This document shows, piece after piece, positions 18,489 to 61,530 of a DNA stretch of 64,000 bases (positions are counted from its first letter, which is position 1; each line of letters opens with the position of its first letter). Below the pieces are notes generated by a model. That model saw only the letters and a list, made by a program, of their open reading frames with translations. It ran no database searches and had not been told where the DNA came from. The DNA comes from Medicago truncatula (lineage: Eukaryota; Streptophyta; Magnoliopsida; Fabales; Fabaceae). The stretch covers positions 45,285,762-45,349,761 of the forward strand of contig NC_053042.1 of NCBI RefSeq assembly GCF_003473485.1, in the 5' to 3' direction. A program made the position numbers and the translations under genes.

Positions 18489-18578
18489 CAACCACTATCC
18501 CAAATCAAAACTCATGCACTCTCTCCTCTCTTATTTCTTTCTGTTAAACTCTCTTTTCTCTTTCGATTTCGTTCAACA

Positions 18579-33164: not shown

Positions 33165-36100
33165 TTACCTCTTCTGGAAATTAAAGACTTTGATGCCATA
33201 AGCAAATACAAAAAGAAACATAACTACAAAAGCAACGTGAGCCACAGCAACAGCTCCAAGGAAGTCATATTCAAAGCCCATCTCTTTCTTGAGGTATGCT
33301 TTTACTGATATTGTTCCAGCTCCAGGTACCTCAATTAGAGTCTCTTTGTCACCCAACTGTGATGTCAGTAGACCATATACGGTCCAAGCAGTCGGACACG
33401 CCCAATAATACCATCTCCACCATATTGGAATTTGCTGCAAAAGTGTGAGCAGCAGTTACATAATCAATGAATTATGATAAGAGAAAAGGATATTAAGAAC
33501 TATGATATCAACTTCTTTGTGAAGATTCCTAGTTATCAACCTAGAAATATGGAATGGATTGCAGAAAGATTTCAACAATACATGTGCTTAATAATGTGAA
33601 AACTATATTCAGAGCCGGCCCAGGTTAGGGCTTTAGGCCTCAAAATTTTGGGGTTTTAGGCCTCTAAACATGTTGGGCCGGCCTAGACTATATTCCTTAA
33701 CTCATGCATACTAATGTGAAGCTTGTTTTAACACTCATGGACTATAAATATATTTGATCATTTTTTGTTAAACATACCGATTTGGGGATCACGAAACCTG
33801 AGAATATGTTCCAGAACATTAGAAAGAAGGACATAACAATTGCAGCAATTTGGTAGTTCGGTGTCAGAGCCACAGTCATCATTCCATAAAGTGTGAAGTA
33901 GACAAAGGACATGAATATAAAGTAGTAGAACCAGATGAACTTGTCAGCTTGCCAAGGGAACCCCATCATTGAGTAAAGGATAAGGGTATACGCTAGTGTT
34001 TGGATTGCAACGTATATACATTCTATTGCTACCTGCAAGTCAATCCTTGTAGATTTCGTAAGTTTGCTTAGTTATTGGAAATTCAATTAACTGGTGTTTT
34101 TTTTTTCCTTCCTGTTTTCGTGTGTGTGAAAGGATCAGCTTCGTTTACCTGAGCAATTGCATAAGGGAGAGCTGAGTACATTCCGGCGGCTCTTTCACGG
34201 TAGAAGACTGTTCTTTCTACTGCTACGACAGGTTGAACCGAGGAAGTGTTGGTGGCTCCAAGAAATAAAATAGCTGAATACATAGCTCCTGTTAAATTCA
34301 AAAGATCCTGTTCCTTGTGTCTGCAGCCGAAAAAATAATTTGTCATCACCTAATTCACATTTCGTGAGCATGAAATTAATCATCTTTCCCCCTTTTTGAG
34401 GATGTTGATAAATATATTGTTGTCTTTTTCAACAACAAAATAGAGATCAACAAGAGCTCTTCTAGATGGTTCAGCAATTTTATGATAACGTTGGTTAATA
34501 ATTATTTGACAAGATATTGATGACTCCTACTTATTTTTCATTCAATTTATGACCTCAATAGAGAGCGTCATCCTATGTGAACATAGCTTTAAGTTGTTCT
34601 GTTACTGTCCAACTAGGAACATATGCTATTCTTGATCATACTTGATTCATGTGTTTTCATATCAAAGGTTAGAATTTAACAGCTAATTGTATTTTGAAGT
34701 ACAATACGAACTTGGCGAACATGTGGACTTACATTTTATCTCCTTTGTTCCAGAAAACGAGTCCAAAAATGACACCTACAGTTAGTGACATAAAGAACCG
34801 GGTGGCGTTATATTGAGGATTCCTCCAGTAGGACCATCGCTGTTTCCAGAAGCAACCTTTGCATTGAGTAATAAAAGAACGGGAGTGTTTAGTAGCGAAA
34901 TTAATATCTTTTGTTCCTGGTACTGGTGCACTTAGCTCTTTAATAAGTTCTTCATTCGTCCTGAAAAGAGCTTATATCAGAAATGTGTCTAATAAGATTG
35001 AAAAAAGGAACACTGGTGCTTAACAATCTTTTTTTTTGGAACGAAGGTAGTCATATGGGAATGCAACTTCAACTTAAACTTAACTGATACAATTCTGACT
35101 TAATATACAAATCTGCAAAGTCTACACTAAGCTGAGACTCAACTATTGGAGAACTGATCTCCAACATCCATGTGGCAGGATTATGTCCATCTTTAATCCT
35201 AGGTATTCCTGGAATAGCCTGCGAAAGGTTCACATAGTTTATAAATTTATAAAATTTGAGAATTTTTTTATATTTTGCAGTGCCGAAGTCATACTCACCT
35301 CAAAGTACTTAATAAGCTTCTGAGATTGTTGTCCAAGGGGACCACTGTATATTATTTGTCCTCCTCTCTTCATCAAAAGCAGCTGAATGAAAGACGGTGT
35401 TGAGAGAGCGTTATTTTTTTTTCATAACTCGTATAAGTAAAAGCCCATCTCTCAAATTTTGAGAATTTATACCTCATCAAAAGATTCAAATATATCAATG
35501 CTTGGTTGGTGAATTGTGCAGACCACAGTTCTCCCTGTATCCGCTGTATTTCTGACAGTACGCATAACAATTGCTGCAGCTCTGGCATCAAGGCCTGATG
35601 TAGGCTCATCCATAAAGATGATTGAAGGATTGGCAACCAATTCTACAGCAATGGTGAGTCTCTTTCTTTGTTCTGTTGATAAACCATCTATGCCAGGAAG
35701 GCCTACTAAAAAATTCCTCACTGGTTGTAGCTCAACAAGCTTCATAACTTCCTCAACAAACATCTGTAGTAAGAGAGGATGGTTAAGAATTAATCTGTTC
35801 GTAAAGTTACATCGGTGGGGACTATTTGGCTACATATTTTACTGAATAAAGCATGCTGCAAAAAAAGTTCACGAGGGGGTTTAGGTCTGGAGTTAGATAT
35901 ATGTAAGAGTCGATTAAAATACAGCACACCTTCTGTGTTTCTTTGTTGACCTCCTTACTGAGACGTAGCCAAGCTGAAAAAACAATAGATTCATAGACTG
36001 TAAGATTTGGAGAGTGAATATCGTTTTGTTCACAGTATCCACTGATTCGTGCAAAAGTTGCTTGGTTCTTTGGATAACCAGATACGCTAATGCTCCCTTC

Positions 36101-39100
36101 AATATAACCACCAGTTTTTCTTCCAGCAAGAACATCCATTAGTGTGGTTTTTCCAGCACCAGTTACACCAACTAATGCCGTTAGTACTCCAGGCCTGAAA
36201 GCACCACTTACATCTCTTAGTAATTGGAGTCTACCCTCTTCAATTCCTTGTTTTTTCATTTCCTGAAATGAAAACACCATTAAGACATCATAAAGGCAAC
36301 AAGAGGAATAGTGTAAAAGGTGAAAGTGGATAACCAAAAAGATATTTCTCACTAGTAGGAATATAGAGCAGTGAAAAACAATGCTGAAGTGCATTATAAT
36401 TGGAGATGATTAAAATGAAGGTAGAGAGCGCAGAACTTACGGCTGGCATATTGATGTAGTAATTTACGCGATCAAATGCAAGTGATTGTGGCCTGAAAGG
36501 TAACACCATCCCCCTCTTGGTTGTTGCAGTGTCTGCTTTGAGAATTGGACTCTCTAAGGTATTTCTTTCTGCCATTTCAATGCCTGCATATAATCATTTT
36601 ATTTTATTAGTTTGGATTTGAACATGAAGTATATTATGCTAACAGATACTTGGTGTGAATATTAAAAACACCACAAATCCTAGGAGTGCGTGAATAGAAT
36701 AATCATTTCAAACTACGCAGGACAAAAATACGCATTCTTATGAAACCAGCTTGATCGAAGAATGAATCAAGTATTTATCTCGCAGCTTGCTATGATATAT
36801 AATAGTTATATTCCAGGAGTAAGTTAGTTGACATGTTAGTACCTTACCAGAAAGAAGTTCAGGGCTGTTTGGTTTTACAAAACGTTTCTTATTTTACTAC
36901 AAATATGAAACTGTCACTTTGTTTTCCTTATGTTTTCTATATTCAAATATTTGTACATGAAAAGTAAAAAATAAAGAAAAGGCTGTTTTTACCATTCATT
37001 GTTCAAATTTAAGAATATATGAGACAAAATGAAAATACTGTGCCCCTTTTGTAAAAACATCTCTTCCAATCAAACTGACATTTAGTTCCTAAAAACAAAA
37101 ATCTTTTTACACATTTGACAAAAAAGAAAAGGGTAAGGTGTAATTACTTTCCAACAATTTAGATTTTGAAGCATAACTCTCATTTGTTGCTTCCTTTTTC
37201 TCATTTTCCTCTTCTAGAGCAATGGATTTAGAATCTCCAAATGCTGCAATTTAACTTTTAGACCTTGTTAGAGATGGTTTTATAGCAGAAACAGAATCAG
37301 AAATAAGCAGTATGGAGACTTACGATTCAAAAATGTGAGGGCGATGATAAAACAAATGTTGAAGAGCAGTGAAAAGCCTAAGAGAGCACCAATACAAATC
37401 CAGTACCAATAATCTTCTGTAAACATGCTTCTAGCCTTGAGAAGAGCCTTCCCAACTGTAGGTTCAGGAATTCTTGGATCTAAATTTGGCTGTAAAGCAT
37501 CATTGAATATATTTGACTTTAATCATATCTATCTTAAAAGTCAGTATAAAAAGTTTCACACTAATGCATCAAAATTAATATCATATGATGAAATCCTAGA
37601 GTTTTTTTTCATATGTTAAGGATCTTACTGCACTCCATCTTTTGTCAAGGAACTCATTGATGGCAATAGCATTCTGACCATACATCATAGGAGAAGCATA
37701 ATAGCCCCATATCATCCATGGTTCAATGTCATCTGTAAAGGACATTATTAAAGTTGCTTGAGCCATTGTTCTATACCTTGTTTTTTGTCATGCATATTTA
37801 ATTTGACTGATGAAGTTTATTAGGTGCAAAAGAATAAATAATGCTCACCTCTGGCGATAATGAAGCCACCAAGTAAGAAAACAAGTAGCAGCATAAAGGT
37901 GCCAAATGTACTTGCTACAACCATTGTTCTTCCAAGAGCAGCAATGAATCGGAACAGAGATAGACCCATTTGATGAACGCAGAAGAATGCTAATAACTGA
38001 CGAAAAAATCTGTTACAGTTGTACAAAATCAGTCTTGAATCAGATAATTCTCGCTACTGGCAAGTCGACATAAAACAAAGAAACTATAAAAGTGTATCAA
38101 CCAATTCAACAAAAATTGTGAATTTTCATACCTACTTGCAGCTGGAGCAAACCCTATGGTATAATAAGTAAGGACAACCCATAATCCTGACTCCAGAAAA
38201 GAGAGAGGGATTCTAAGGATCCATATGGGAAGTGCAAAAGCCCAAGCAGGATAAAATAACAAATCTCTCTGCTTGAAGAAAACAGGAAGTCTAAAAATAG
38301 TCATTGCAAGCTCAGCCATTCCATTGAACATTATATTAATCAAACTGAAGAATAATGCACCATAAAATTTTCTCCCATCTTCAAGATGACCATATTTCAT
38401 TTCTGTTCTAAAAAACACTGTCATAGCAATCAAAGACATGATCATGATCTGAGTAGTCTTAAATATATATATAAAAGCGCTACGCTTTGTCAGTAGCCAC
38501 TCTCTTGCAAAACATGCCTTGAAGAGTTCTAGTTTTGAGATTCCAAATTTATCCTTAACCAATGCAGCAGGATGAGTTTTCGCACGGTCATAAGGAACAC
38601 CTAGCTCTTCAGAAAGCTGTTGTCCAATGCTATAATTGTTGAAGTGAGTTACAAACTCGGGAACGCTGATATAATGGTATGTTTTGTCCCTTATGAACCA
38701 GTACTGCTCTTGATCCTTTCTAGAAGTAACCTCTTGTAAGAAATCTGCAACTCCTTTCCTTTCCGGGCATTTGAATCCAACGCTCTCAAAAAAATTGAGA
38801 ACGTGTTCGCGAGGACCTTGGTAGACAATCTGACCTTCTGAAAGTAAGATTATGTCATCAAAAAGATCAAATGTTTCTGGTGCAGGTTGTAAAAGAGAGA
38901 TTATCATTGTAACATCCATGATATGAACTAGCTGTCTCAAGAATCTGACTATTTGGAAGGTTGTAGAACTATCTAGACCGGTCGAGATCTCATCCATTAA
39001 GAAAACTTTTGCAGGTCCTACCAGCATCTCACCTGCATTTTACACTGACACTGCTTGAGAAAATTGGACAAAGAAGAGCTTTTGAAAGACTTGTTCATAA

Positions 39101-42100: not shown

Positions 42101-44257
42101 ATCCAAACCAATTTTTTTTAATCAGGTTGGATTTTAAAAAACAAATAACAAAATTGAAAAAATTGAATCAAATTATTTTTCTTTCCAATACAATCCACGA
42201 ACACCCCTAATAAAACCTCGTTTAAAACTATAAGAAGAGCACATTCTAAAATTCAAACTCCACGCCATCAGACAAACTCATATGTCTTAATTAACCAAAA
42301 ACAAACATTCAACATATCAATGTGTATTTTCTGGTTCACCAATTTTGTTAAATTAAAAAGTGTACTGTGTAATGCAACCACATTAATAAATACTATGGAG
42401 TACTATTCACCAAAAAATAAACATTAATAAATATGGCCCCATCAATTACCTTGCTGGCCTGACAATTCCACTAACACCTTTTAGGATTTTGATGACACTT
42501 TTCTTTGAAGGTAGAAGCTTGATTGCTCCAAGTACTCCCTGTTTTTTTTTCCATAAACCATGAACAGAGAAAATATCGTTATGGTACAATACTTTTTTGA
42601 CAATTGCATGGACAACAACTAAGTTAAGGAGAATTATTAAATCTAGTGGTTGGAAAGGTAATGGGATGATACATGACCAATTTAATTTCATTTAATACTT
42701 TTTTGTTTTAATCTTTTGATATTTGATATAAGAATACTTTGTAATATAATATTCAATCAAGAGATAACTAAAATTTAGTTAAAAATAGTTTCAGTTAAGA
42801 TAGTCTTCTGTTACAAAATTAATGTATTTGTTCAAAATTTGGTTCAAATACTTGTTTTTTTTGACTCATTTTTGTTTAAATTTGGAGGGAGTACAAATTA
42901 TATTATTTTGATTTCATAAAATTCATATCTTTGTATAAATTCAAGATTACTGCAATGATAGAAAGTAAAAATATGTCAAGTAATTTCTTTTTCATTATTA
43001 ATTCGTTTCCAATTAGGGAAGATTGTAGAGGAGAGGGATAAGTTTGAGTGTTTGGCTATTATTAGTCCACTGAGCCTGATACATCTGACTTTGCTGCCTC
43101 TTCCACTGTTTATCAGTAATAATTGAATATGAATTGAAACCTATATAAGAATAGCTCCTATGATTTCAGGAAAAATGGTAAGAGAAAAATAAGAAAATAT
43201 TGTAATGAAATTATGATTTCCCCTCATATTTTTTCAATGAAGCCTTGACTATTTTTTTAGTGGATGGCATAAGTAACATAAATCTTAAACTATGCATAAA
43301 TTAATTTTAACTATTTAATCAATAAATTTTACAATATTAAATCTAAATAAAAAATAAAAAAAAAGTAGTAGTATTATTTTTATAGAGAGAGTAGCTAGGA
43401 TGGGTCAAAAAAGACAAACACAGTACTATAATTGGAATGGTGTAAGGTGACCACCTCCCATTGAGTAGTTAGCTGACAAAAAAGAGAGTTAGTAATACCT
43501 CAATCGCATTCATGGTGGAATTTACAAGTGTTGGTAATGCTCTGCTTCCATTAAATGCATCTCCTTCAACAAACAAGTTCTCAAATCTCACTTCAACTTT
43601 TGGTATATCTATATCAACCCTGAATCCAAACTAAAATATTTAAAGATCATATCCGTACACATATATTATACAATCCAAATTAAAATTAAAATTAAATCTT
43701 CTATATTACTACAATACATGATTCATGATTGATATATAAAAAATATATAGTCTTAAACATATGAAAAACATTGAAATTAATCTATATTGTTAATGAACGA
43801 GATAAAATAAAAATTGTTGTTTAGAAGATATATTATAAGAGAAATTAGGAAAGAGAATGAAAAACCTATGAATCCTCTCCCTCATCTTAAGGAGAAACTT
43901 TTCATTATCTTCTTCAATAGTTCTTAGTATACCATCCATGAGTTTATTCTTATCATGAATACCAAGCTTGGATATATCAACCTCTTCATAACTAAATCTC
44001 CCACTATCTATAGCTTGTTTCACAATGCTTTTCCTTAGCCTTTCAAAAGTAGGAAGCCTCTCTATGGCTGCCCACTTGAGCTCTTCTTCATCATCAATAT
44101 CTTCCTTCTTATTCTTCCTCTCAAACACTTGATCACCACTCCATACTTCAGCTGGAACACTTGTTGATGTCCAACTTCTACTACTTGAAGATCCAATGTT
44201 CATCCTTAGGCTGCTTATTGATCTCAAACCATCATCTTTATCTAACCCTTCCTCCAT
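33165..44257 (-). CDS. Full-size PDR-type ABCG transporter (20 exons)
   Basis: Exons (minus): 44257-43866, 43619-43499, 42538-42450, 40232-40148, 39881-39591, 39500-39410, 39032-38132, 38009-37849, 37732-37629, 37489-37324, 37243-37148, 36583-36441, 36262-35930, 35763-35473, 35382-35299, 35218-35085, 34960-34733, 34320-34149, 34032-33778 and 33434-33165. The sum is 4407 nt, 1468 residues, normal for plant PDR pumps. Order is NBD1-TMD1-NBD2-TMD2. NBD1 has Walker [10 protein letters not shown] (about 207), signature GISGGEKKR and Walker [17 protein letters not shown]2 has GVTGAGKTT (about 930), LSTEQRKR and [15 protein letters not shown] motifs [16 protein letters not shown] and [20 protein letters not shown] are intact. 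Such plasma-membrane pumps export terpenoids, phenolics, hormones or monolignols; the substrate cannot be told. All introns are GT-AG; intron 3 is 2.2 kb. No break is seen. Confidence 0.97.
33610..33686. mobile_element. 77-bp hAT-like MITE inside the last PDR intron
   Basis: The short element starts CAGAGCCGGCCCAGG and ends GGGCCGGCCTAG; the ends are inverted repeats sharing GCCGGCCCA. The 8-base direct repeat ACTATATT (33602-33609 and 33687-33694) flanks it, as expected for hAT insertion. It lies in the intron between 33435 and 33777 and does not touch splice sites. Confidence 0.75.
40233..42449 (-). other. PDR intron 3 (2.2 kb)
   Basis: This is the longest intron of the PDR gene, bounded by GTAATT (donor, 42449) and GAGCAG (acceptor, 40233). 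Apart from the SINE fragment it holds AT-rich sequence with no recognised gene. A GC-richer, purine-rich stretch lies at about 41480-41650. Confidence 0.8.
41777..41838 (-). mobile_element. Truncated SINE (family A) in PDR intron 3
   Basis: On the minus strand the segment reads CATCGTGAGTTTAACTCAGT, then jumps to the B box GGGTTCAAACCCCG and an A-rich tail. The region between the A and B boxes is lost compared with 25373-25510. It lies in the 2.2-kb third intron of the PDR gene. Confidence 0.65.
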
Positions 44258-44611
44258 TTTTGCTTGTGTTTGGAGTATTAATGAAAATTCTAATAGGTAG
44301 GTGTTGGTAGGGAAATTTTGATAGTAGTACCACAAAACTTTATGTGTGGAAGTTGGAAGGGTTGAGGTATTTTATTGTCTCCATAATTGGAAAGGATGTG
44401 ATGGATTAGATGAATGATAGTCCAATTGGTGAAGTGTCGTCCTATGTTTAATGTCAATTAAATAGTAATTGGTTTTAAAATAAAAATGACGCTAGACTTG
44501 AAAAAAAAATAAAAAAAATAAATTTACGGAGCCTAAAATTTGAATCTACATCAAACATGATAAGTCTCGACTAACTTAGTCAAACGAGACATCTATAGCT
44601 ATTTTGTTATT
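44258..44611 (-). other. PDR promoter region
   Basis: This is the upstream region of the PDR gene, ended on its far side by a MITE at 44612. No clear TATA box could be assigned with confidence. Confidence 0.35.
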
Positions 44612-45078: not shown

Positions 45079-45539
45079 TTGAATCCATATAAATTTTAAC
45101 AAATGAAGAGAATAGATTATTATCATATTATCTTAATGACAATGCACACATGATTTTAGATAAATCCAAAATTCTTCCTATGTAATCTAACATACGATAT
45201 TTGCTTATCATTTTTAAAAGTTTATTATACGTGCGTGCATTTAAAATTATTTAATAAGTAATAATTTTGGATTAATCTGATAAATAAGAGATTTGATTTC
45301 ACCATTGAATTTCTTCGATCAAACTATTATATTAATGGCGATGTACATAAATTTAGATACATCCGCAACTCATAGCTATATCTAATGGCTATTCGGAAGC
45401 TCGGCTCTGGGAATGAAAAGAGGTCAGTGATAAAATCAAAACGTATTTTTTTTAAAAGAGCGATGTTCTATTTATATTTTTTAAAAGATAAATACAAAGT
45501 ATCGTATATATGCAGTACATCCAGAAGTGAAAATGACTA

Positions 45540-45664
45540 CCGTATACATGAGGAACCCCCACCTAACACCAAAATCAATCATGAGGAACCCCCACTCTTG
45601 ATGCCCATCCTTGAGGGAGGCCCAGCTCGTTTGAGCTGTTTGCACCCCCTCAGGGACGCCCCTG
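45540..45664. mobile_element. hAT-like terminal fragment
   Basis: The segment ends CCCTCAGGGACGCCCCTG, which read inwards begins CAGGGGCGTCCCTGAGGG, a terminus seen in many plant hAT-like elements. The partner end was not found. The words GAGGAACCCCCAC occur twice (about 45550 and 45583). No transposase frame. Confidence 0.4.
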
Positions 45665-46100
45665 GGTCCACGTTTCCTTATATATATATATTTTTAATAA
45701 AGTATTTTAAATAATCTAAATTCTTATTTGAATAACTAACTCAACTCATCAAAGAAAAAACTCAATAAAAAAATAGTACTAAATTTAACTTTATAATTAA
45801 TAAAATTTAAATATTTTTTATTTTGTGGAAACGCAAGATAACAAGCAGGAAAAAAAAAAGGGATAGTAAGTGAGGATACATTTATTTAAAAAAAAAACAC
45901 TACGGAAATGGGTTGGGGTAATTTTAAAAATTGAGTTTGAAGATTTTTCATGGAAGTTTCCTTTGTCAAGAACCGACACTATATTATTAATGGAAAGTCC
46001 AAAAATAGTGAAACTCCAACAAAAGCAGCGATGTTCATGTTTCGTTAGTTTCTCGTGACGCCATTGACACAAATTTATACTCCATCATCTTTAATTATTT
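45665..46100. other. Left flank of the FRS tandem array
   Basis: This is single-copy AT-rich sequence up to the array edge at 46100/46101. No gene is seen. The array starts at ACAGTTGTGCTATATGGTGC. Confidence 0.5.
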
Positions 46101-46228
46101 ACAGTTGTGCTATATGGTGCGACAAGCACCACACGAATTACACGAGAGAATGGCTGACCCCACCATCCAATTTCCTTTTTATATTATTTTTTTGATATTA
46201 ACATTAAAATGAATAAATAAACAAATAT

Positions 46229-46498
46229 ATGGCAGAGACAATCACGGCACACACTTTCTTCTCCATAACCTTATGTTCTGATTTTGTTCAACAACACAAA
46301 CTCACCGTTACCAACATTCACCGCCGTTTTCAAACTTCCTTCTCCATAACCTTGTTGTCTCTGTTCCGCAATTGTTGTCGTCATTCTCGTTGTGGTTGTC
46401 ATCGCACTACTATCTCTGCATATCAACCTGCTACTGCCTCTGTTTATCAGCATTGCTACTCTAGCCTCAACCATCAATTGAAATATGATTTTCCCTAA
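46229..46498 (+). other. 89-codon upstream ORF overlapping the FRS start, unit 1
   Basis: An open frame in the FRS leader begins MAETITAHTFFS and ends 14 bases after the FRS ATG at 46485, in another frame. It resembles no known domain. If the transcript starts upstream of 46229 it would repress translation of the main frame; if transcription starts later it is irrelevant. It is repeated exactly at 51822-52091 and 57416-57685. Confidence 0.45.
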
Positions 46499-49293
46499 TT
46501 TAGCATCCAGTTCAAGAGACAATAGTAAGTCTATGATCTATTTATTTATTGTTTTAGAATTAACTCTGTTGCCTTTACTTTTAATTACGTTGATTAATTT
46601 AAGTTTCTTTTTTTAAAAATTTGTTGTATTAGTGGAGAAAAGATTTACATCTTGTGAAGAAGAAGAAGAGAGTAATCACATAAATGAAAATTGTCAGTTT
46701 AATTTAACAGAAAATGAAGATGATGAACCTAAGGTTGGCATGAAATTTAATTCTACAGAAGAAGTTGACAAATATTACAAGAATTATGCTAGATGTATAG
46801 GTTTTGGAGTTAGCAAAATCAGTACAAAAAATGGAGATGATGGAAAAAAGTATTTTACTCTAGGGTGTAACCGTGCAAGAAGCTATGCGAGTAAGTCCAA
46901 AAATATTTTAAAGCCAAATCCTAGCATGAAAACACACTGTATGGCTAGAATAAATGTATGTGTGTCTTCAGATGGAACAATTGCTATTTCTAAGGTTGCT
47001 CTTGAGCATAATCATGACTTAATAAGTCCAAGCAAATCAAGATATTTTAGATGCAACAAGAATATAGACCCTAGTATAAAAAGGAGATTGGAGGTTAATG
47101 ACCAAGCTGGGATTAATGTAAGTAGAAATTTTCGGTCTATGGTTGTTGAAGCAAGTGGATATGATAACCTTACATTCGGGGAAAAAGATGCTAGAAACTA
47201 CATAGACAAAGTGAGGCGGCTTCGACTTGGGACAGGAGATGCTGAAGCCATTCAAAATTATTTTGTTAGAATGCAAAGAAGAAATAGTGAATTTTATTAT
47301 GTAATGGATGTGGATGACACAAGTCGTTTACGAAATGTTTTTTGGGCAGATGCGAGATGCAGGGCTGCTTATGAGTATTTTGGTGAAGTAATAACCTTTG
47401 ACACCACTTACTTAACAAATAAATATGACATGCCTTTTGCTCCTTTTGTTGGAGTAAATCATCATGGTCAGTCAATTCTGTTAGGTTGCGCCCTATTGTC
47501 GAAGGAGGATTCTATAACTTTTTCTTGGTTGTTCACTACTTGGTTAGAATGTATGCGTGGGCGTGCACCACAAGCCATAATTACTGACCAAGATAGAGCA
47601 ATGAAAAATGCAGTTGAGGACGTCTTCCCAAAAGCTCGCCATCGGTGGTGCTTGTGGCATATAATGAAAAAGGTTCCAGAAAAATTGAGTAGACTCTCTA
47701 ACTATGAGTCTATCAAAATACTTTTGCATGATGCGGTGTATGATTCTTTGAGCATAAGTGATTTCATGGAGAAGTGGGAAAAAATGATTGAATGTTATGA
47801 ACTTCATGATAATGAATGGTTGAAAGGGTTGTTTGATGAGCGTCATCGTTGGGTTCCTGTATATTTGAGAGACACATTTTGGGCTGGAATGTCAACTACA
47901 CAACGAAGTGAAAGTATGAACGCATTTTTTGATGGATATGTGAACTCAAAGACATCATTGAAGCAATTTGTTGAACAATATGATAATGCATTGAAAGATA
48001 AAATTGAAAAGGAAAATATGGCTGATTTTAGTTCATTCAATAGAATTATTGCTTGTATAAGTCATTTTGGATTTGAATCTCAATTTCAAAAGGCATATAC
48101 CAACGCAAAATTCAAAGAGTTTCAAGTAGAAGTGGCTTCTATGATGTACTGCCATGCTTTCTTTGAGAGAATAGAGGCTATGAACTTAACATACTGTGTT
48201 ACAGAAAGTAAAAAGGTATTTGATGAAGTTAAAGACATAATGTTCAAGGTATTCTTCAATGAGAAAGACTTTGAAATACGATGTACATGCTGTTTATTTG
48301 AGTTTAAGGGTATTTTATGTAGACATATCCTTTGTGTTCTTAAGCTCACAGCTAAAACAGAGTCAGTGCCCTCTTGTTATATATTGCCGAGATGGAGGAA
48401 GGATATTAAGCGAAGATACACACTTATTAAAAGTGGTTTTGATCAATTATCCGAAAATGAAGAGTTGCAGCGTGTAGCTAAAGCTTGCGATGCCTTTTAC
48501 GAAGTTGCTTCTTCATGTATCCATACTGAAAAAGATTTATCGAAAGTAATGGATAGAATAGAGAACTTAAAACTGGAGATGACATGTCAAGAAAGTTTTT
48601 CAGAGATCACTGAAGGAGATAACTTAGTTCAGAATCAGATGACTAAAATTCTTGATCCTGCAGTGACTCGAAGTAAAGGGCGTCCTCCTTCAAAAAGGAA
48701 GGCTTCTAAAGTTGATCAAAGTGTGAAAAGGAAGCTTGCTGGAAAGAAAGGACAAAAAAGCAACAAAAAAAATAACACTTATCAAAGTCAAGAAGAGGTA
48801 ATCTTGAAATTTTCAAGTTTATTTTATCTCATTTACAAGTAACAAAATGTATGTCTAATTTATTTATTTTTATGTAGGGGCCTAGTATATCTAAAGTTCA
48901 AGAAAATCAAGAGTTCTCTATATCTCAGACCATTGATCTTGATGTGATCGACACACAAGAGAGCATTCATGTAAAACAAATGTTAGCTCCCTTCAATCCA
49001 AATCAAAAATATCTTGATGTTGATAAGGTGAATATAGATATCAACACTCTTCAATTTTATTTACACATATAAATCTATAATATGAAAATAACTCATTCAA
49101 AATATATTGGTTTTAGGTTCCATATTATTCTCAAAGCATAAACCACGATGTTTCATATTTAGAGCTTTTACAGGTATTGATTTATGATTTGTTTTGGTAA
49201 TATAGTCAAATTTCAACATAAGTCACTAATTATTTCATTCATGTGTGCTTTTTGCAGGCACAACACCATATAAATGATCATCCATCATCATGA
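46485..49293 (+). CDS. FAR1-RELATED SEQUENCE protein, unit 1 (5 exons)
   Basis: Exons 46485-46524, 46633-48797, 48878-49027, 49117-49173 and 49258-49293 sum to 2448 nt, 815 residues. FRS/FHY3-type proteins are transcription factors domesticated from Mutator-like transposases. Order: FAR1 zinc-binding DNA-binding domain (about 60-145, with GFGVSKIST, LGCNRA, MKTHCMARI and LEHNHDL), MULE transposase domain (about 235-385, VITFDTTYLTNKYDMPFAPF with first Asp near 270 and IITDQDRAMKNAV with second Asp near 332, then HRWCLWHI), SWIM zinc finger CTCCLFEFKGILCRHIL, and a basic tail KGRPPSKRKAS like an AT hook. A 13-residue first exon supplies the only in-frame ATG; the big exon itself starts after an acceptor and has no ATG at its head. 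Unit 1 differs from the others at one residue (VYLRD instead of VYVRD). Confidence 0.9.
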
Positions 49294-51693
49294 TGGAGTG
49301 AAAATGGTTATTTTTTTGTGCTTTAAGGTTGTTTGGTGCTGGGACTGTTTGTGCAGAATAGGTTGGAGGAGCAGCGGGTGTGGGAGTTTTGTGCTAGCCT
49401 GGTTGTTGTGTTGCAGAGCCTGATTAAGTGCTGTTGTTGGCTTTTTTTCTTGGTTTTGTCGTAGTGCCATATTTCAGTTTGGTCTAGTTTAGTTTCATTT
49501 TGGCTTTAACGTTGCTTAGCCTTCATTTATCATTTTAAACTTTTTGTAATTTTTCCATCATTGCACTCTTTCTGATTGGTTGAATGTTTTAATATATTTC
49601 AATTTCGGTCCTTTTTATGTAATTGGTTTTGAATCAGAGATTATCAATCATGTTGAAAAATTGAGTTTCTGTTAGCAGCCATATGGAGTTTATGTTAGTA
49701 GGCATATGGAGAAAAATTGAGTTTCTGTTAGCAGGCATATGGTAGCCTCATTTTTCTGTTTTGTTTCTTTGCCCTCTGCTGTTCGCGCATTTGGCTTGCC
49801 TTTTTTCACGTTTTATTTTTGTTGTGTCTGTGTTGTCGGCAGCATGTGGAGGTTCGGGGTTTCTGCTATATCAGAGCCCTTTGTATTTTTCTTATTTGTG
49901 GCCGCAAGTTTTTGTTGTGCTTCTTGCACACACTCGACATGAATAAATTTAGCCGTTTCTAAGAAAAAACATGTTGAATCTTGATTTCGGAAAGTATCAT
50001 TCTTCAATATATTAAATATTCAAATATTACAACAAAGTTATTCTAAAAAACATTACAATTATGTAATTACATTAACAATATAAAGGGCGCCATATATAGG
50101 TGGATCACCCTGAAAATCAAAAAGACAGACAAATGTTTCTGCTCAATAGGAATAATACATCGATCAATCTCAAATAAAGCCGCAGAAGCTGTCAAAAACA
50201 TGAGCAGAACAATGCCTACACAGCAGCCTCTCAGCAAGAAAAAGCCGTGCTGAACATAAACTATATAAACCAAGAAAGCCGTCGGAAACCTCAAACAAAA
50301 CAGCAGCTGCAAACGCACCACTCATAGCAGAAACAACAACAGCAGGTTGAGCAATAAGGTTAAAAACCGACAACAACTGCATCAACATTGGAGCAGCAGA
50401 GACAACACAAACACAAGTATGCACTAGACCATGATACCGTTACATTGTGTTTTTGACAGCACTTTCCCAAACACAAGTACAAGATACCATTCCATATTAG
50501 GCCAACAACACTATCTATTTTATCATTTCTCTTTAGCATCATTGATTCTCTTGTGCTATTCAGCTTCTGCAAACAGCTTTGGGATAACTGATTCTCTTGT
50601 GTTATTCAGCTTCTGCAAACAGAAGAAATAAATAGAAGTATCAATTGAATTTTTAGCAAAGCGTAAGTTGTAATAGTTCTATAATTATCAAAGACAATAC
50701 AGTTTGAGGAGTATGATATAAAATAGAGAAACAAAAATACCAAACAGATGCACAATATAATGACAATTTATTCAAAAACTTTCAATGTACACAATATGTG
50801 CAACAAGCTCTTTCTCTGTGTTATTCTAACAAAATCTAAGTTGTCTCGCTACCTCTACACAACGGCAAAACATGCTTAAAATGTAACCAAGGTTAACTCC
50901 TTCCACACAATTACCCTGTTGCACTATGCAAAGCATCCAATGTTAACACAACTATGTGAAAACCTGCAAAACCCACCATGAAAAATTCAGTTGTCTCAAT
51001 TATGTCTCACTATCTTGATGATTTTTTGCAGTATTTTTTTGTTGTTAAAAATTCAGCTTTTGACCACAAAGTTTGTGAATTAAAACAAAATTAACTACAT
51101 TAGTTAATCCAATTTCCTATACAGGCTAGTTACATTCTAATTTCCTTGATTTTCTTCACTAAGCTCATAAACACAACACCAGTTGAAGTACATAATCCTA
51201 GTAAATCATAAATAGTTTATTCACACTAATTTCATTAAGTTATAGATGAAAATTTTCTAAAAGCCATGGCAATTGCAACAAATATAGCTTGCTTATAAGT
51301 CTTCGATTCACATTTCTAATCTTTTAACAATCAAATGAGCACATCAGAAGAAAATTCACAAAAAGAATAAATTCAAACCTGAAGCTGTTCATGCAACTGT
51401 TTCTGGAACTCCATCTGCAGTCATAGAGCTTCTGTGATCTCAATACCACTGTCAACGATGGAGTTGTAAACTGACCAATTTTATTCGGTGGGTAACATTT
51501 AACTACGGAGAATCGAGTGTAAATCTATAGGATTTGCCCATTTTCCCCTAAACAAATCAAATAGAGAAAGAGAAAGATTATCAGTGTGGAAATTGAAAAT
51601 TGAAACCTAAAAGAAATATGAAGAACAAGGAGAAAGAGGCTGACGGTGGAAATCAAAAATCAAGCTTCTTGTCACAGAAGAACAGAAGCGATA
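49294..51693. other. Non-coding remainder of FRS unit 1
   Basis: This is 2.4 kb of unit 1 downstream of the FRS stop. It has several open frames of 60-90 codons on both strands, none with a recognised domain. A short region repeats GAGTTTCTGTTAGCAGGCATATGG-like words (49660-49740), and CTCTTGTGCTATTCAGCTTCTGCAAACAG-like words occur twice (50548-50580 and 50592-50624). The part from about 51360 to 51693 should act as promoter of the next unit, since it lies directly upstream of unit 2. Confidence 0.5.
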
Positions 51694-52077
51694 ACAGTTG
51701 TGCTATATGGTGCGACAAGCACCACACGAATTACACGAGAGAATGGCTGACCCCACCATCCAATTTCCTTTTTATATTATTTTTTTGATATTAACATTAA
51801 AATGAATAAATAAACAAATATATGGCAGAGACAATCACGGCACACACTTTCTTCTCCATAACCTTATGTTCTGATTTTGTTCAACAACACAAACTCACCG
51901 TTACCAACATTCACCGCCGTTTTCAAACTTCCTTCTCCATAACCTTGTTGTCTCTGTTCCGCAATTGTTGTCGTCATTCTCGTTGTGGTTGTCATCGCAC
52001 TACTATCTCTGCATATCAACCTGCTACTGCCTCTGTTTATCAGCATTGCTACTCTAGCCTCAACCATCAATTGAAAT

Positions 52078-54886
52078 ATGATTTTCCCTAATTTAGCATC
52101 CAGTTCAAGAGACAATAGTAAGTCTATGATCTATTTATTTATTGTTTTAGAATTAACTCTGTTGCCTTTACTTTTAATTACGTTGATTAATTTAAGTTTC
52201 TTTTTTTAAAAATTTGTTGTATTAGTGGAGAAAAGATTTACATCTTGTGAAGAAGAAGAAGAGAGTAATCACATAAATGAAAATTGTCAGTTTAATTTAA
52301 CAGAAAATGAAGATGATGAACCTAAGGTTGGCATGAAATTTAATTCTACAGAAGAAGTTGACAAATATTACAAGAATTATGCTAGATGTATAGGTTTTGG
52401 AGTTAGCAAAATCAGTACAAAAAATGGAGATGATGGAAAAAAGTATTTTACTCTAGGGTGTAACCGTGCAAGAAGCTATGCGAGTAAGTCCAAAAATATT
52501 TTAAAGCCAAATCCTAGCATGAAAACACACTGTATGGCTAGAATAAATGTATGTGTGTCTTCAGATGGAACAATTGCTATTTCTAAGGTTGCTCTTGAGC
52601 ATAATCATGACTTAATAAGTCCAAGCAAATCAAGATATTTTAGATGCAACAAGAATATAGACCCTAGTATAAAAAGGAGATTGGAGGTTAATGACCAAGC
52701 TGGGATTAATGTAAGTAGAAATTTTCGGTCTATGGTTGTTGAAGCAAGTGGATATGATAACCTTACATTCGGGGAAAAAGATGCTAGAAACTACATAGAC
52801 AAAGTGAGGCGGCTTCGACTTGGGACAGGAGATGCTGAAGCCATTCAAAATTATTTTGTTAGAATGCAAAGAAGAAATAGTGAATTTTATTATGTAATGG
52901 ATGTGGATGACACAAGTCGTTTACGAAATGTTTTTTGGGCAGATGCGAGATGCAGGGCTGCTTATGAGTATTTTGGTGAAGTAATAACCTTTGACACCAC
53001 TTACTTAACAAATAAATATGACATGCCTTTTGCTCCTTTTGTTGGAGTAAATCATCATGGTCAGTCAATTCTGTTAGGTTGCGCCCTATTGTCGAAGGAG
53101 GATTCTATAACTTTTTCTTGGTTGTTCACTACTTGGTTAGAATGTATGCGTGGGCGTGCACCACAAGCCATAATTACTGACCAAGATAGAGCAATGAAAA
53201 ATGCAGTTGAGGACGTCTTCCCAAAAGCTCGCCATCGGTGGTGCTTGTGGCATATAATGAAAAAGGTTCCAGAAAAATTGAGTAGACTCTCTAACTATGA
53301 GTCTATCAAAATACTTTTGCATGATGCGGTGTATGATTCTTTGAGCATAAGTGATTTCATGGAGAAGTGGGAAAAAATGATTGAATGTTATGAACTTCAT
53401 GATAATGAATGGTTGAAAGGGTTGTTTGATGAGCGTCATCGTTGGGTTCCTGTGTATGTGAGAGACACATTTTGGGCTGGAATGTCAACTACACAACGAA
53501 GTGAAAGTATGAACGCATTTTTTGATGGATATGTGAACTCAAAGACATCATTGAAGCAATTTGTTGAACAATATGATAATGCATTGAAAGATAAAATTGA
53601 AAAGGAAAATATGGCTGATTTTAGTTCATTCAATAGAATTATTGCTTGTATAAGTCATTTTGGATTTGAATCTCAATTTCAAAAGGCATATACCAACGCA
53701 AAATTCAAAGAGTTTCAAGTAGAAGTGGCTTCTATGATGTACTGCCATGCTTTCTTTGAGAGAATAGAGGCTATGAACTTAACATACTGTGTTACAGAAA
53801 GTAAAAAGGTATTTGATGAAGTTAAAGACATAATGTTCAAGGTATTCTTCAATGAGAAAGACTTTGAAATACGATGTACATGCTGTTTATTTGAGTTTAA
53901 GGGTATTTTATGTAGACATATCCTTTGTGTTCTTAAGCTCACAGCTAAAACAGAGTCAGTGCCCTCTTGTTATATATTGCCGAGATGGAGGAAGGATATT
54001 AAGCGAAGATACACACTTATTAAAAGTGGTTTTGATCAATTATCCGAAAATGAAGAGTTGCAGCGTGTAGCTAAAGCTTGCGATGCCTTTTACGAAGTTG
54101 CTTCTTCATGTATCCATACTGAAAAAGATTTATCGAAAGTAATGGATAGAATAGAGAACTTAAAACTGGAGATGACATGTCAAGAAAGTTTTTCAGAGAT
54201 CACTGAAGGAGATAACTTAGTTCAGAATCAGATGACTAAAATTCTTGATCCTGCAGTGACTCGAAGTAAAGGGCGTCCTCCTTCAAAAAGGAAGGCTTCT
54301 AAAGTTGATCAAAGTGTGAAAAGGAAGCTTGCTGGAAAGAAAGGACAAAAAAGCAACAAAAAAAATAACACTTATCAAAGTCAAGAAGAGGTAATCTTGA
54401 AATTTTCAAGTTTATTTTATCTCATTTACAAGTAACAAAATGTATGTCTAATTTATTTATTTTTATGTAGGGGCCTAGTATATCTAAAGTTCAAGAAAAT
54501 CAAGAGTTCTCTATATCTCAGACCATTGATCTTGATGTGATCGACACACAAGAGAGCATTCATGTAAAACAAATGTTAGCTCCCTTCAATCCAAATCAAA
54601 AATATCTTGATGTTGATAAGGTGAATATAGATATCAACACTCTTCAATTTTATTTACACATATAAATCTATAATATGAAAATAACTCATTCAAAATATAT
54701 TGGTTTTAGGTTCCATATTATTCTCAAAGCATAAACCACGATGTTTCATATTTAGAGCTTTTACAGGTATTGATTTATGATTTGTTTTGGTAATATAGTC
54801 AAATTTCAACATAAGTCACTAATTATTTCATTCATGTGTGCTTTTTGCAGGCACAACACCATATAAATGATCATCCATCATCATGA
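52078..54886 (+). CDS. FAR1-RELATED SEQUENCE protein, unit 2 (5 exons)
   Basis: Exons 52078-52117, 52226-54390, 54471-54620, 54710-54766 and 54851-54886 encode 815 residues, identical to unit 1 except Val for Leu in the VPVYVRDTFW stretch after the transposase domain. Introns match unit 1 base for base as far as I can see. The promoter differs from unit 1: upstream of the shared edge at 51694 lies the end of unit 1, not the single-copy left flank, so the two genes may be expressed differently. Confidence 0.9.
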
Positions 54887-57287
54887 TGGAGTGAAAATGG
54901 TTATTTTTTTGTGCTTTAAGGTTGTTTGGTGCTGGGACTGTTTGTGCAGAATAGGTTGGAGGAGCAGCGGGTGTGGGAGTTTTGTGCTAGCCTGGTTGTT
55001 GTGTTGCAGAGCCTGATTAAGTGCTGTTGTTGGCTTTTTTTCTTGGTTTTGTCGTAGTGCCATATTTCAGTTTGGTCTAGTTTAGTTTCATTTTGGCTTT
55101 AACGTTGCTTAGCCTTCATTTATCATTTTAAACTTTTTGTAATTTTTCCATCATTGCACTCTTTCTGATTGGTTGAATGTTTTAATATATTTCAATTTCG
55201 GTCCTTTTTATGTAATTGGTTTTGAATCAGAGATTATCAATCATGTTGAAAAATTGAGTTTCTGTTAGCAGCCATATGGAGTTTATGTTAGTAGGCATAT
55301 GGAGAAAAATTGAGTTTCTGTTAGCAGGCATATGGTAGCCTCATTTTTCTGTTTTGTTTCTTTGCCCTCTGCTGTTCGCGCATTTGGCTTGCCTTTTTTC
55401 ACGTTTTATTTTTGTTGTGTCTGTGTTGTCGGCAGCATGTGGAGGTTCGGGGTTTCTGCTATATCAGAGCCCTTTGTATTTTTCTTATTTGTGGCCGCAA
55501 GTTTTTGTTGTGCTTCTTGCACACACTCGACATGAATAAATTTAGCCGTTTCTAAGAAAAAACATGTTGAATCTTGATTTCGGAAAGTATCATTCTTCAA
55601 TATATTAAATATTCAAATATTACAACAAAGTTATTCTAAAAAAACATTACAATTATGTAATTACATTAACAATATAAAGGGCGCCATATATAGGTGGATC
55701 ACCCTGAAAATCAAAAAGACAGACAAATGTTTCTGCTCAATAGGAATAATACATCGATCAATCTCAAATAAAGCCGCAGAAGCTGTCAAAAACATGAGCA
55801 GAACAATGCCTACACAGCAGCCTCTCAGCAAGAAAAAGCCGTGCTGAACATAAACTATATAAACCAAGAAAGCCGTCGGAAACCTCAAACAAAACAGCAG
55901 CTGCAAACGCACCACTCATAGCAGAAACAACAACAGCAGGTTGAGCAATAAGGTTAAAAACCGACAACAACTGCATCAACATTGGAGCAGCAGAGACAAC
56001 ACAAACACAAGTATGCACTAGACCATGATACCGTTACATTGTGTTTTTGACAGCACTTTCCCAAACACAAGTACAAGATACCATTCCATATTAGGCCAAC
56101 AACACTATCTATTTTATCATTTCTCTTTAGCATCATTGATTCTCTTGTGCTATTCAGCTTCTGCAAACAGCTTTGGGATAACTGATTCTCTTGTGTTATT
56201 CAGCTTCTGCAAACAGAAGAAATAAATAGAAGTATCAATTGAATTTTTAGCAAAGCGTAAGTTGTAATAGTTCTATAATTATCAAAGACAATACAGTTTG
56301 AGGAGTATGATATAAAATAGAGAAACAAAAATACCAAACAGATGCACAATATAATGACAATTTATTCAAAAACTTTCAATGTACACAATATGTGCAACAA
56401 GCTCTTTCTCTGTGTTATTCTAACAAAATCTAAGTTGTCTCGCTACCTCTACACAACGGCAAAACATGCTTAAAATGTAACCAAGGTTAACTCCTTCCAC
56501 ACAATTACCCTGTTGCACTATGCAAAGCATCCAATGTTAACACAACTATGTGAAAACCTGCAAAACCCACCATGAAAAATTCAGTTGTCTCAATTATGTC
56601 TCACTATCTTGATGATTTTTTGCAGTATTTTTTTGTTGTTAAAAATTCAGCTTTTGACCACAAAGTTTGTGAATTAAAACAAAATTAACTACATTAGTTA
56701 ATCCAATTTCCTATACAGGCTAGTTACATTCTAATTTCCTTGATTTTCTTCACTAAGCTCATAAACACAACACCAGTTGAAGTACATAATCCTAGTAAAT
56801 CATAAATAGTTTATTCACACTAATTTCATTAAGTTATAGATGAAAATTTTCTAAAAGCCATGGCAATTGCAACAAATATAGCTTGCTTATAAGTCTTCGA
56901 TTCACATTTCTAATCTTTTAACAATCAAATGAGCACATCAGAAGAAAATTCACAAAAAGAATAAATTCAAACCTGAAGCTGTTCATGCAACTGTTTCTGG
57001 AACTCCATCTGCAGTCATAGAGCTTCTGTGATCTCAATACCACTGTCAACGATGGAGTTGTAAACTGACCAATTTTATTCGGTGGGTAACATTTAACTAC
57101 GGAGAATCGAGTGTAAATCTATAGGATTTGCCCATTTTCCCCTAAACAAATCAAATAGAGAAAGAGAAAGATTATCAGTGTGGAAATTGAAAATTGAAAC
57201 CTAAAAGAAATATGAAGAACAAGGAGAAAGAGGCTGACGGTGGAAATCAAAAATCAAGCTTCTTGTCACAGAAGAACAGAAGCGATA
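54887..57287. other. Non-coding remainder of FRS unit 2
   Basis: This matches 49294-51693 with one extra A in an A run near 55640. No gene is recognised. Confidence 0.5.
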
Positions 57288-57671
57288 ACAGTTGTGCTAT
57301 ATGGTGCGACAAGCACCACACGAATTACACGAGAGAATGGCTGACCCCACCATCCAATTTCCTTTTTATATTATTTTTTTGATATTAACATTAAAATGAA
57401 TAAATAAACAAATATATGGCAGAGACAATCACGGCACACACTTTCTTCTCCATAACCTTATGTTCTGATTTTGTTCAACAACACAAACTCACCGTTACCA
57501 ACATTCACCGCCGTTTTCAAACTTCCTTCTCCATAACCTTGTTGTCTCTGTTCCGCAATTGTTGTCGTCATTCTCGTTGTGGTTGTCATCGCACTACTAT
57601 CTCTGCATATCAACCTGCTACTGCCTCTGTTTATCAGCATTGCTACTCTAGCCTCAACCATCAATTGAAAT

Positions 57672-59942
57672 ATGATTTTCCCTAATTTAGCATCCAGTTC
57701 AAGAGACAATAGTAAGTCTATGATCTATTTATTTATTGTTTTAGAATTAACTCTGTTGCCTTTACTTTTAATTACGTTGATTAATTTAAGTTTCTTTTTT
57801 TAAAAATTTGTTGTATTAGTGGAGAAAAGATTTACATCTTGTGAAGAAGAAGAAGAGAGTAATCACATAAATGAAAATTGTCAGTTTAATTTAACAGAAA
57901 ATGAAGATGATGAACCTAAGGTTGGCATGAAATTTAATTCTACAGAAGAAGTTGACAAATATTACAAGAATTATGCTAGATGTATAGGTTTTGGAGTTAG
58001 CAAAATCAGTACAAAAAATGGAGATGATGGAAAAAAGTATTTTACTCTAGGGTGTAACCGTGCAAGAAGCTATGCGAGTAAGTCCAAAAATATTTTAAAG
58101 CCAAATCCTAGCATGAAAACACACTGTATGGCTAGAATAAATGTATGTGTGTCTTCAGATGGAACAATTGCTATTTCTAAGGTTGCTCTTGAGCATAATC
58201 ATGACTTAATAAGTCCAAGCAAATCAAGATATTTTAGATGCAACAAGAATATAGACCCTAGTATAAAAAGGAGATTGGAGGTTAATGACCAAGCTGGGAT
58301 TAATGTAAGTAGAAATTTTCGGTCTATGGTTGTTGAAGCAAGTGGATATGATAACCTTACATTCGGGGAAAAAGATGCTAGAAACTACATAGACAAAGTG
58401 AGGCGGCTTCGACTTGGGACAGGAGATGCTGAAGCCATTCAAAATTATTTTGTTAGAATGCAAAGAAGAAATAGTGAATTTTATTATGTAATGGATGTGG
58501 ATGACACAAGTCGTTTACGAAATGTTTTTTGGGCAGATGCGAGATGCAGGGCTGCTTATGAGTATTTTGGTGAAGTAATAACCTTTGACACCACTTACTT
58601 AACAAATAAATATGACATGCCTTTTGCTCCTTTTGTTGGAGTAAATCATCATGGTCAGTCAATTCTGTTAGGTTGCGCCCTATTGTCGAAGGAGGATTCT
58701 ATAACTTTTTCTTGGTTGTTCACTACTTGGTTAGAATGTATGCGTGGGCGTGCACCACAAGCCATAATTACTGACCAAGATAGAGCAATGAAAAATGCAG
58801 TTGAGGACGTCTTCCCAAAAGCTCGCCATCGGTGGTGCTTGTGGCATATAATGAAAAAGGTTCCAGAAAAATTGAGTAGACTCTCTAACTATGAGTCTAT
58901 CAAAATACTTTTGCATGATGCGGTGTATGATTCTTTGAGCATAAGTGATTTCATGGAGAAGTGGGAAAAAATGATTGAATGTTATGAACTTCATGATAAT
59001 GAATGGTTGAAAGGGTTGTTTGATAAGCGTCATCGTTGGGTTCCTGTGTATGTGAGAGACACATTTTGGGCTGGAATGTCAACTACACAACGAAGTGAAA
59101 GTATGAACGCATTTTTTGATGGATATGTGAACTCAAAGACATCATTGAAGCAATTTGTTGAACAATATGATAATGCATTGAAAGATAAAATTGAAAAGGA
59201 AAATATGGCTGATTTTAGTTCATTCAATAGAATTATTGCTTGTATAAGTCATTTTGGATTTGAATCTCAATTTCAAAAGGCATATACCAACGCAAAATTC
59301 AAAGAGTTTCAAGTAGAAGTGGCTTCTATGATGTACTGCCATGCTTTCTTTGAGAGAATAGAGGCTATGAACTTAACATACTGTGTTACAGAAAGTAAAA
59401 AGGTATTTGATGAAGTTAAAGACATAATGTTCAAGGTATTCTTCAATGAGAAAGACTTTGAAATACGATGTACATGCTGTTTATTTGAGTTTAAGGGTAT
59501 TTTATGTAGACATATCCTTTGTGTTCTTAAGCTCACAGCTAAAACAGAGTCAGTGCCCTCTTGTTATATATTGCCGAGATGGAGGAAGGATATTAAGCGA
59601 AGATACACACTTATTAAAAGTGGTTTTGATCAATTATCCGAAAATGAAGAGTTGCAGCGTGTAGCTAAAGCTTGCGATGCCTTTTACGAAGTTGCTTCTT
59701 CATGTATCCATACTGAAAAAGATTTATCGAAAGTAATGGATAGAATAGAGAACTTAAAACTGGAGATGACATGTCAAGAAAGTTTTTCAGAGATCACTGA
59801 AGGAGATAACTTAGTTCAGAATCAGATGACTAAAATTCTTGATCCTGCAGTGACTCGAAGTAAAGGGCGTCCTCCTTCAAAAAGGAAGGCTTCTAAAGTT
59901 GATCAAAGTGTGAAAAGGAAGCTTGCTGGAAAGAAAGTGTAA
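57672..59942 (+). CDS. FAR1-RELATED SEQUENCE protein, unit 3, C-terminally truncated (2 exons)
   Basis: Exons 57672-57711 and 57820-59942 encode about 720 residues. The FAR1, MULE and SWIM domains and the basic KGRPPSKRKAS tail are all kept. The duplicated sequence stops at 59937, inside the large exon; the flank then supplies one new residue and a TAA stop, so about 95 residues (end of exon 2 and exons 3-5) are lost. One further change, Glu to Lys (LFDKRHRW), is private to this copy; it shares the VYVRD variant with unit 2. It has no known 3' UTR or terminator of its own. It may still make a DNA-binding protein, since the missing tail has no recognised domain. Confidence 0.85.
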
Positions 59943-60600
59943 TGAATCACACCATAAAAATTATGCATTGATTACATGATGCTGAAAACAAGTCTACAAC
60001 AAAAGTTTAAAATGAAAATGGTCATCAATGATGATATTCATACATCCTAGTTAATGTATTTAAATACATAAACTTAAGTCTGCATTTAACAACTTAAAAC
60101 TAACATGGGAACAGAGATGCATATGCATCAAAATGTTGTGTTTTGAGAGCAAATAATTGCAGATCCTACAGAAAAAAAACAATTAACAAGGATCTGACCA
60201 AGACAATGAAGGTAAATTTGGTAGTTATGGCAAAGTGTAATTTCAGTGGGAAGTTAAATTTTCTCCAACAGCAAAAGTGTAATGGCAATAATTTGTCATC
60301 ATCTCACCAGAGGAAGAACCATTTCGAGCAACACCCTTTGGCCTTAACAGATAGAGAACTGGTGGTGTGTTTCGTGGGAACCCCTGAAGGAGCATAGCTA
60401 GAAATATTCCCAAGCTCTTGGCCAAAAAACAATTCTACCTGAGCCTACACACAACCATCCATTCATGCACCAATAACCTCTCTCCCTTTGTTTTATTTTA
60501 AAGATGTGATTTTTTTTCTTTTTATTGTTATTAGAGATATAGTAAATTATAGATTACGAATAAGTTTTACTTAACCATTAAAGTTTTATGATTCAAGGTG
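59943..60600. other. Right flank of the array
   Basis: This is single-copy sequence after the break. It has an 84-codon frame (60143-60397) without recognisable features. No gene is supported. Confidence 0.4.
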
Positions 60601-60601
60601 T

Positions 60602-60740
60602 AATTTGCATATAAGTTTTACATTTGGAGAGGATGTTTGCATATAAGTTATAAATTTGAGGGGATATTTGCTGCATAAATTTTAAATTTGAGGGTGGTAT
60701 TTGCACATAAATGTTTAATTTCAGGGGGTATTTGCATGTT
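60602..60740. repeat. Degenerate short tandem repeat, period about 33 bp
   Basis: Four to five copies of a unit like ATTTGCATATAAGTTTTA followed by a (T/A)TTTGAGGGG block lie head to tail, each diverged. The same GGGGGTATTTGCA ending and TTTCAGGGGG words continue to 61015 (GGGGTTTTTTTGACG, TTTCAGGGGGATAATTGAC), suggesting a larger dispersed element, about 60600-61025. Confidence 0.55.
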
Positions 60741-61025
60741 CAGTGGGTGACACAAATGTTATTATGAAAAGAAAAAAAAAATCAGATTTTTTCAAAATAA
60801 AAATAAAAATATAGTCAATTACGCCCTATGACGTGACATGACTTTTCTGACCATGTGTCAGTGCCACGTGGCAGTTAACGGCCACATCAGCATGTTGGAT
60901 GGAGGAAATTAACGGAGGGGGGTAATTGACAGACGCTTGACAATTTCAGGGGGGTTTTTGACGTTTTGCAAAATTCAGGGGTTTTTTTGACGAAAGTTAC
61001 AATTTCAGGGGGATAATTGACTATT

Positions 61026-61530
61026 TACTCATTGTTTTAAGTATCCAATGATCTGTTATCACGTCAATTAATAATTAATGAATATGAAAACATATGAATC
61101 TTCGTTTTAATTAATTGATGTAACAACACAATATAGACATCGAATATAAAATAATTGTAAACTAACAAAGTATACTAATTAAACTCTAAAAATAATTGGA
61201 AGAATAATGGAATCAATTAATGGATCCATTTGTTAAAATGAATATTATTAATCTATCACTAATGTCGGTCTCTCTCATCAACAAAAGATAGATAGATGGA
61301 AGAAATTCAAATCTAAATTGTATTGGCAGTAAAAAATATGAGTTGTATTTAGTATCTGACTCATCTAATAAAAAAAAATTTTTAGGGAACTCTAGAAATA
61401 ATTAAAGGTGTTATAAAAGAAAGTGGACTAGTAAATTTTTAGTAACAAAAAAAAAAAAAATTATTGTAACTCTTGTCTATTAATAAAACTCTTATAAGGG
61501 GCTCTCGAAATGCCCCTTTTAAAATAGTTG
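61026..61530. other. Spacer
   Basis: AT-rich spacer with an A run near 61447. No gene is seen. Confidence 0.4.

Follow-up and report, generated by a model that had tools for sequence, protein, structure and literature searches.

Two whole units and one truncated unit of what is very probably a young Mutator-like DNA transposon (MULE), with the borders described here from sequence comparison, stand in tandem in a stretch of Medicago truncatula DNA of 64,000 nucleotides (hereafter the window; contig NC_053042.1, here C1).

The window was aligned with itself by BLAST, which confirmed the near-identical tandem triplication reported in the initial annotation. Repeats start at 46101, 51694 and 57288, and their spacing of 5593 and 5594 bears out the near-constant unit length given there. 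Two whole units (46101-51693 and 51694-57287) and a cut one (57288-59937) are thereby delimited. The segment 46101-54343 matches 51694-59937 at 99.95%, and 46101-48750 matches 57288-59937 at 99.89%, with 3 mismatches. In total, three substitutions and one 1-base indel separate the units, in agreement with the "about four positions" counted earlier. The features are collected in Table 1, in which the exons come from a splice model with GT-AG borders and the genes are sequence-based predictions.

Table 1. Features of the array and of its borders, in window coordinates.
Feature	Position	Strand	Description
Putative left target site duplication of the original insertion	46093..46101	+	AATTATTTA, 9 bases left of the exact 5' terminus
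Unit 1	46102..51693	+	Probable MULE with 5' terminus CAGTTGTGC, lacking the last 115 bp; transposase gene predicted to be intact
Unit 1 transposase gene (predicted)	46485..49293	+	Exons 46485-46524, 46633-48797, 48878-49027, 49117-49173, 49258-49293; 815 aa
Junction 1	51688..51703	+	GCGATA, A, CAGTTGTGC: end of unit 1 (internal to the 3' part of the element), then 5' terminus of unit 2
Unit 2	51695..57287	+	No private change; predicted intact transposase gene
Unit 2 transposase gene (predicted)		+	Exons 52078-52117, 52226-54390, 54471-54620, 54710-54766, 54851-54886
Junction 2	57282..57297	+	Identical to junction 1
Unit 3	57289..59937	+	Cut inside exon 2
Right joint	59934..59944	+	AAAGTGTAATG, 11-mer recurring at 60274-60284
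Neighbouring dispersed repeat	59945..61033	+	Inverted arms of ~540 bp; left arm missing here

The differences could be assigned to individual units by alignment with a copy located on contig C4. Private to unit 1 are A47861, T47865 and a 1-base deletion (one A fewer in the A run ending at 50044), unit 3 has a single private substitution (A59025), and unit 2 has none. Units 2 and 3 have the bases encoding VYVRD, and so do the C4 copy and the two copies of this stretch in C9; at the two positions concerned, C9 (96% alike) reads as units 2 and 3 do. VYVRD is the ancestral state and the VYLRD of unit 1 the derived one. The initial annotation had used VYVRD to link units 2 and 3, a link that is lost, since a shared ancestral state says nothing on their kinship.

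All three substitutions between units fall within 28 bp (window 47838-47865, the 47838 site being that of the unit 3 change at 59025), a clustering with a chance probability of ~2.5e-4. A consensus artefact, a mutation of several bases at once or a conversion from an unseen donor could lie behind this cluster, which is left unexplained by the model of insertion and duplication proposed below. Gene conversion was rejected as the source as far as the few aligned relatives go (C4, both C9 copies, C7 41.9 Mb, C6 8.8 Mb and C2 15.1 Mb), none of which was a suitable donor: none carries both unit 1 bases together, or the unit 3 base, and the C2 copy has the A of 47861 alone among the unit 1 changes.

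Members of the MULE superfamily generate target site duplications of 8-11 bp, and their terminal inverted repeats are long in most cases and absent in non-TIR MULEs. When the genome to which the window belongs was searched (42 contigs, 430 Mb), one further near-identical copy, of 5708 bp, was recovered at C4:62249586-62255293 on the minus strand. It starts with CAGTTGTGC, ends with CATTTTCC and is bordered on both sides by a perfect 9-bp target site duplication, TAATCAAAT. This copy is 99.9% identical to unit 1 across 5593 aligned positions and presents two substitutions relative to unit 2 in the shared 5592. It differs from the array units at element positions 146 and 5152; the former change is on the C4 side according to the C9 copy, and the latter position is outside C9 coverage.

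The same 5' terminus is common to the C4, C9, C1:8084075, C5 and C7 copies, whose flanks are unlike, and weaker relatives also have a CAGTTGTGC-type 5' terminus. Perfect 9-bp duplications (TAATCAAAT, ATAAATAAA, TTATTTAAA and ATATTTTAT, each expected by chance at ~1e-5) surround four of the six copies with both ends located, the remaining two having an imperfect one (near C1:48.16 Mb) or none (C1:8084075). Among these six, the close copies C4, C5 and C1:8084075 account for two perfect duplications in three, and the other three are weaker relatives whose ends match at 84-89%. The count leaves aside the copies for which a single end was located (C6, C7 at 49.5 Mb, C9, the more distant 5' ends L029-L034 and L036, and the 3' fragments L046-L048), some of which may have ends outside the fetched stretch. 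Target duplications of the MULE type are thus found in sister copies, the array itself having no right side. Five of the six two-ended copies are short (589, 786, 841, 842 and 1239 bp) and keep both ends, as is typical of non-autonomous derivatives. Long terminal inverted repeats of the kind usual in MULEs did not come out when the outer 80 bases were compared; the only inverted match was subterminal and of 10-11 bp, a length reached by 25/2000 and 5/2000 shuffles. Both this and the missing duplication of the close copy C1:8084075 count against the present reading. In the 96% family copy at C9:1063000-1072950 (L011), ~730 bp (element 1602-2332) are duplicated directly inside the element, and internal stretches are missing. 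As this relative carries such a duplication, rearrangement of this sort recurs in the family; inside the MULE-like element FB4 of Drosophila, too, tandem duplications were reported (PMC8277862).

The five predicted exons encode a protein of the same length in units 1 and 2. The stop-to-stop frame 46617-48842, which holds exon 2, matches the Pfam MULE domain (PF10551) with an E value of 2.6e-37 over positions 1-99 of 99, as well as FAR1 (2e-11), SWIM (1e-6), Transposase_mut (PF00872, E 1.4e-6) and an RNaseH-like domain of ZSWIM proteins. A MULE transposase domain is therefore present, in a single open reading frame with FAR1 at its N-terminus and SWIM at its C-terminus. By eye, FDTTY, ITDQD, CxxH and RSESMN presumably stand where MULE transposases have D, D, CH and E. 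The unit 3 frame takes two bases from the flank and stops at 59940-59942, and its predicted product of 720 aa retains the FAR1, MULE and SWIM domains. The MULE domain is common in this genome, as at least 150 Pfam matches were obtained (the best 150 of 923 candidates). Compared with three relatives from this genome, the exon 2 frame gives dN/dS values of 0.24, 0.22 and 0.19, which fit a working transposase and a host gene equally well.

FRS (FAR1-related) proteins also carry FAR1, MULE and SWIM domains, and these together with the constrained frame would speak for the reading of the initial annotation, in which a domesticated FRS transcription factor gene was triplicated in tandem. Such an origin is nevertheless very improbable. 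A working transposase is likewise expected to show constraint, the 5' edge of the unit is the exact terminus of a dispersed element, the 99.9% copy on C4 has both ends and its 9-bp target duplication, and shorter copies exist with the same or similar ends. FHY3/FAR1/FRS host genes share the same kinds of domains, whereas the gene described here sits in a dispersed element with termini and target duplications. Because sister copies have defined ends and 9-bp target duplications, which is not what a fixed host gene without transposon ends presents, the host-gene part of that description is unsupported, and the repeated unit is the body of a transposon; its MULE origin, on the contrary, is supported.

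By its make-up, with one transposase frame bearing FAR1, MULE and SWIM domains, the element resembles Jittery-like MULEs. These are classified in group 36, with FAR1 in N-terminal and SWIM or CCHC in C-terminal position, include MUMET1 of M. truncatula and comprise some members without terminal inverted repeat (PMC6446971). The target duplication is of 9 bp here, whereas the table of the same paper gives "8 bp", or no indication, for the Jittery group of plants (PMC6446971); another paper counts Jittery among the 9-bp MULEs (PMC9168764). The short subterminal match of 10-11 bp also contrasts with the 181-bp repeats of Jittery (PMC4486113). AutoMuTAnT of M. truncatula, a 4873-bp element, has a single five-exon gene for a Jittery-like transposase of 833 aa, and its family has 9-nt target duplications (PMC4486113). 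The present element is similar in its five predicted exons, its 815 aa and the 5708 bp of its C4 copy, but the ends reported for AutoMuTAnT (search mask GGGGTTTGCTAGAACA) and its TA-microsatellite targets differ from CAGTTGTGC and from the mixed A/T targets found here. The large barley family Hvu_Abermu, with three ORFs and 138-145-bp repeats, is not close (PMC9168764).

The organization of the array is best read from its junctions. Relative to the C4 copy, the complete units lack the last 115 bp and stop at GCGATA. A single A follows, and the next unit then opens exactly at its 5' terminus, CAGTTGTGC. This A is the C1 flank base, the C4 flank having T. With up to three mismatches allowed, a genome search for the junction GCGATA-A-CAGTTG found the two array junctions and no other. 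No two-ended copy is present in the array, which holds two predicted intact transposase genes and a truncated one. A search of the genome with the last 126 bp of the C4 copy gave six matches including itself, the nearest to the array being at C1:48.16 Mb, and no leftover 3' end was found at the array. The putative left target duplication AATTATTTA is composed of A/T only, like the four perfect duplications found elsewhere, and no right partner is left.

On the right side, the 11-mer AAAGTGTAATG comprises the 7 bases between the end of unit 3 and the neighbouring repeat plus the 4 before, and it repeats 340 bases downstream; 0.1 such recurrences are expected in the whole window on both strands, in a comparison made after the joint was seen. 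The joint looks like templated filler, with 4 bases of overlap, at a repaired break. For maize, filler DNA at repaired breaks is quoted as 1-131 bp long in wx and 8 bp long in bz1, in a paper that also gives MULE excision as a proposed way for a tandem gene array to begin (PMC2686159). Position 59945 is where the flank begins to match a dispersed repeat (at least 84 matches with arms counted apart, among the best 40 of 1217 candidates). In copy L050 of this repeat, an inverted arm ends 20 bp before the point matching 59945, and this arm is gone at the array. The left flank contains another dispersed repeat of ~275 bp (window 45391-45665), whose full-length matches are 90-95% alike.

Further upstream, the window harbors a core histone gene (18474-18992, Pfam Histone), H2B-like by eye, and ABC transporter exons on the minus strand (35822-39039, Pfam ABC_tran and ABC2_membrane); the open frame 43790-44371 resembles the start of an ABC transporter gene, by eye. 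Direct repeats with an 87-bp period (27366-27708, 89.7% over 253 bp) lie inside an open frame of 916 aa (26697-29447), for which no Pfam match was found at E 0.001.

We incline slightly towards a local history made of insertion, head-to-tail duplication, unequal exchange and terminal deletion. One MULE would have landed at AATTATTTA on C1. Its 5' terminus, or the position one base further out, would then have been broken and linked to a site lying 115 bp inward from the 3' terminus of a sister copy, forming a head-to-tail dimer. Unequal exchange between units would next have copied the same junction a second time. Finally, most of the last unit would have been lost through a double-strand break, along with the original 3' terminus, the target duplication on the right and an arm of the adjacent repeat. 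The insertion at this site is read from the 5' end alone, because neither a right target duplication nor a 3' end is present there, and we infer the order of the events that followed. The outcome would be a small block of transposase genes, a possible source of enzyme for other family members; the array should not move itself, since it has no 3' terminus. A recent date, as had been proposed, is supported: the distances (unit 2 to C4, 2 in 5592; units 1 to 2, 2 in 5593; units 2 to 3, 1 in 2650) each correspond to ~25-27 thousand years at an assumed rate of 7e-9 per site per year, small counts giving a wide range. Gene conversion could make the array look younger than it is.

Other origins have to be weighed against this local history. 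In favour of an assembly error are the 99.9% likeness of the units and the clustering of their differences in 28 bp, which could be a consensus artefact; the array would then be real but have another number of units, or a false third one. The copy number is indeed that of the assembly only, yet an error of this kind is improbable, given that the junction GCGATA-A-CAGTTG is absent from the C4 copy, requires at least two adjacent copies and occurs twice, and that the array is bordered differently on its two sides and units 1 and 3 each have private changes. It is also rather unlikely that a circular or excised MULE multimer formed off-site and integrated at C1. Circular DNA of VANDAL21, an Arabidopsis MULE, was described in silencing mutants (PMC10462705), and a circle closed near the ends would yield identical junctions; against it, the left border is exactly at the 5' terminus and the junction A is the C1 flank base, not the T of C4, a weak point made on one base. 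Transposition of a second MULE into the 3' part of the first, with the junction then copied by unequal exchange, would account for a junction at the exact 5' terminus. We give this nested event little credit, since the 9 bases before unit 2 (AAGCGATAA) do not agree in their last base with C4, where the sequence is uninterrupted (AAGCGATAC), and contain 3 G/C, whereas the inferred C1 site and the four shown ones have 0-1, and since the inner 3' end is gone. Taken together, the junction A and the G/C-richer, mismatched would-be target speak weakly against both the circle and the nested transposition.

A breakpoint at the terminus plus one flank base is the single feature that points to the transposase. 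The authors describing Muta1 suggest that its transposase cuts outside the inverted repeat (PMC5225508). That the transposase itself built the array, by linking a cut one base outside the 5' end to a break inside the element close to its 3' end, is conceivable but doubtful. If it did, a mobile element would have turned into a fixed, expandable block of transposase genes able to feed or silence the rest of the family. In the tandem EPSPS array of Kochia, which involves a mobile element with an FHY3/FAR1-like gene and for which unequal crossing-over was proposed, a host gene is multiplied between two 16-kb elements, whereas here the element itself is multiplied (PMC6808082). Among the open-licence papers listed for MULE tandem arrays, no array of a whole MULE was found, and nothing in the open-licence library was found to join MULE, transposase, tandem duplication and alternative transposition.

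The array, though clear, is for the most part ordinary transposon biology, and it provides a small, recent case of a cut-and-paste transposon becoming a tandem block that has no mobile ends. In plant genomes, FAR1-domain "genes" that are nearly identical to one another can be young transposons, and FRS gene counts may thus be inflated.
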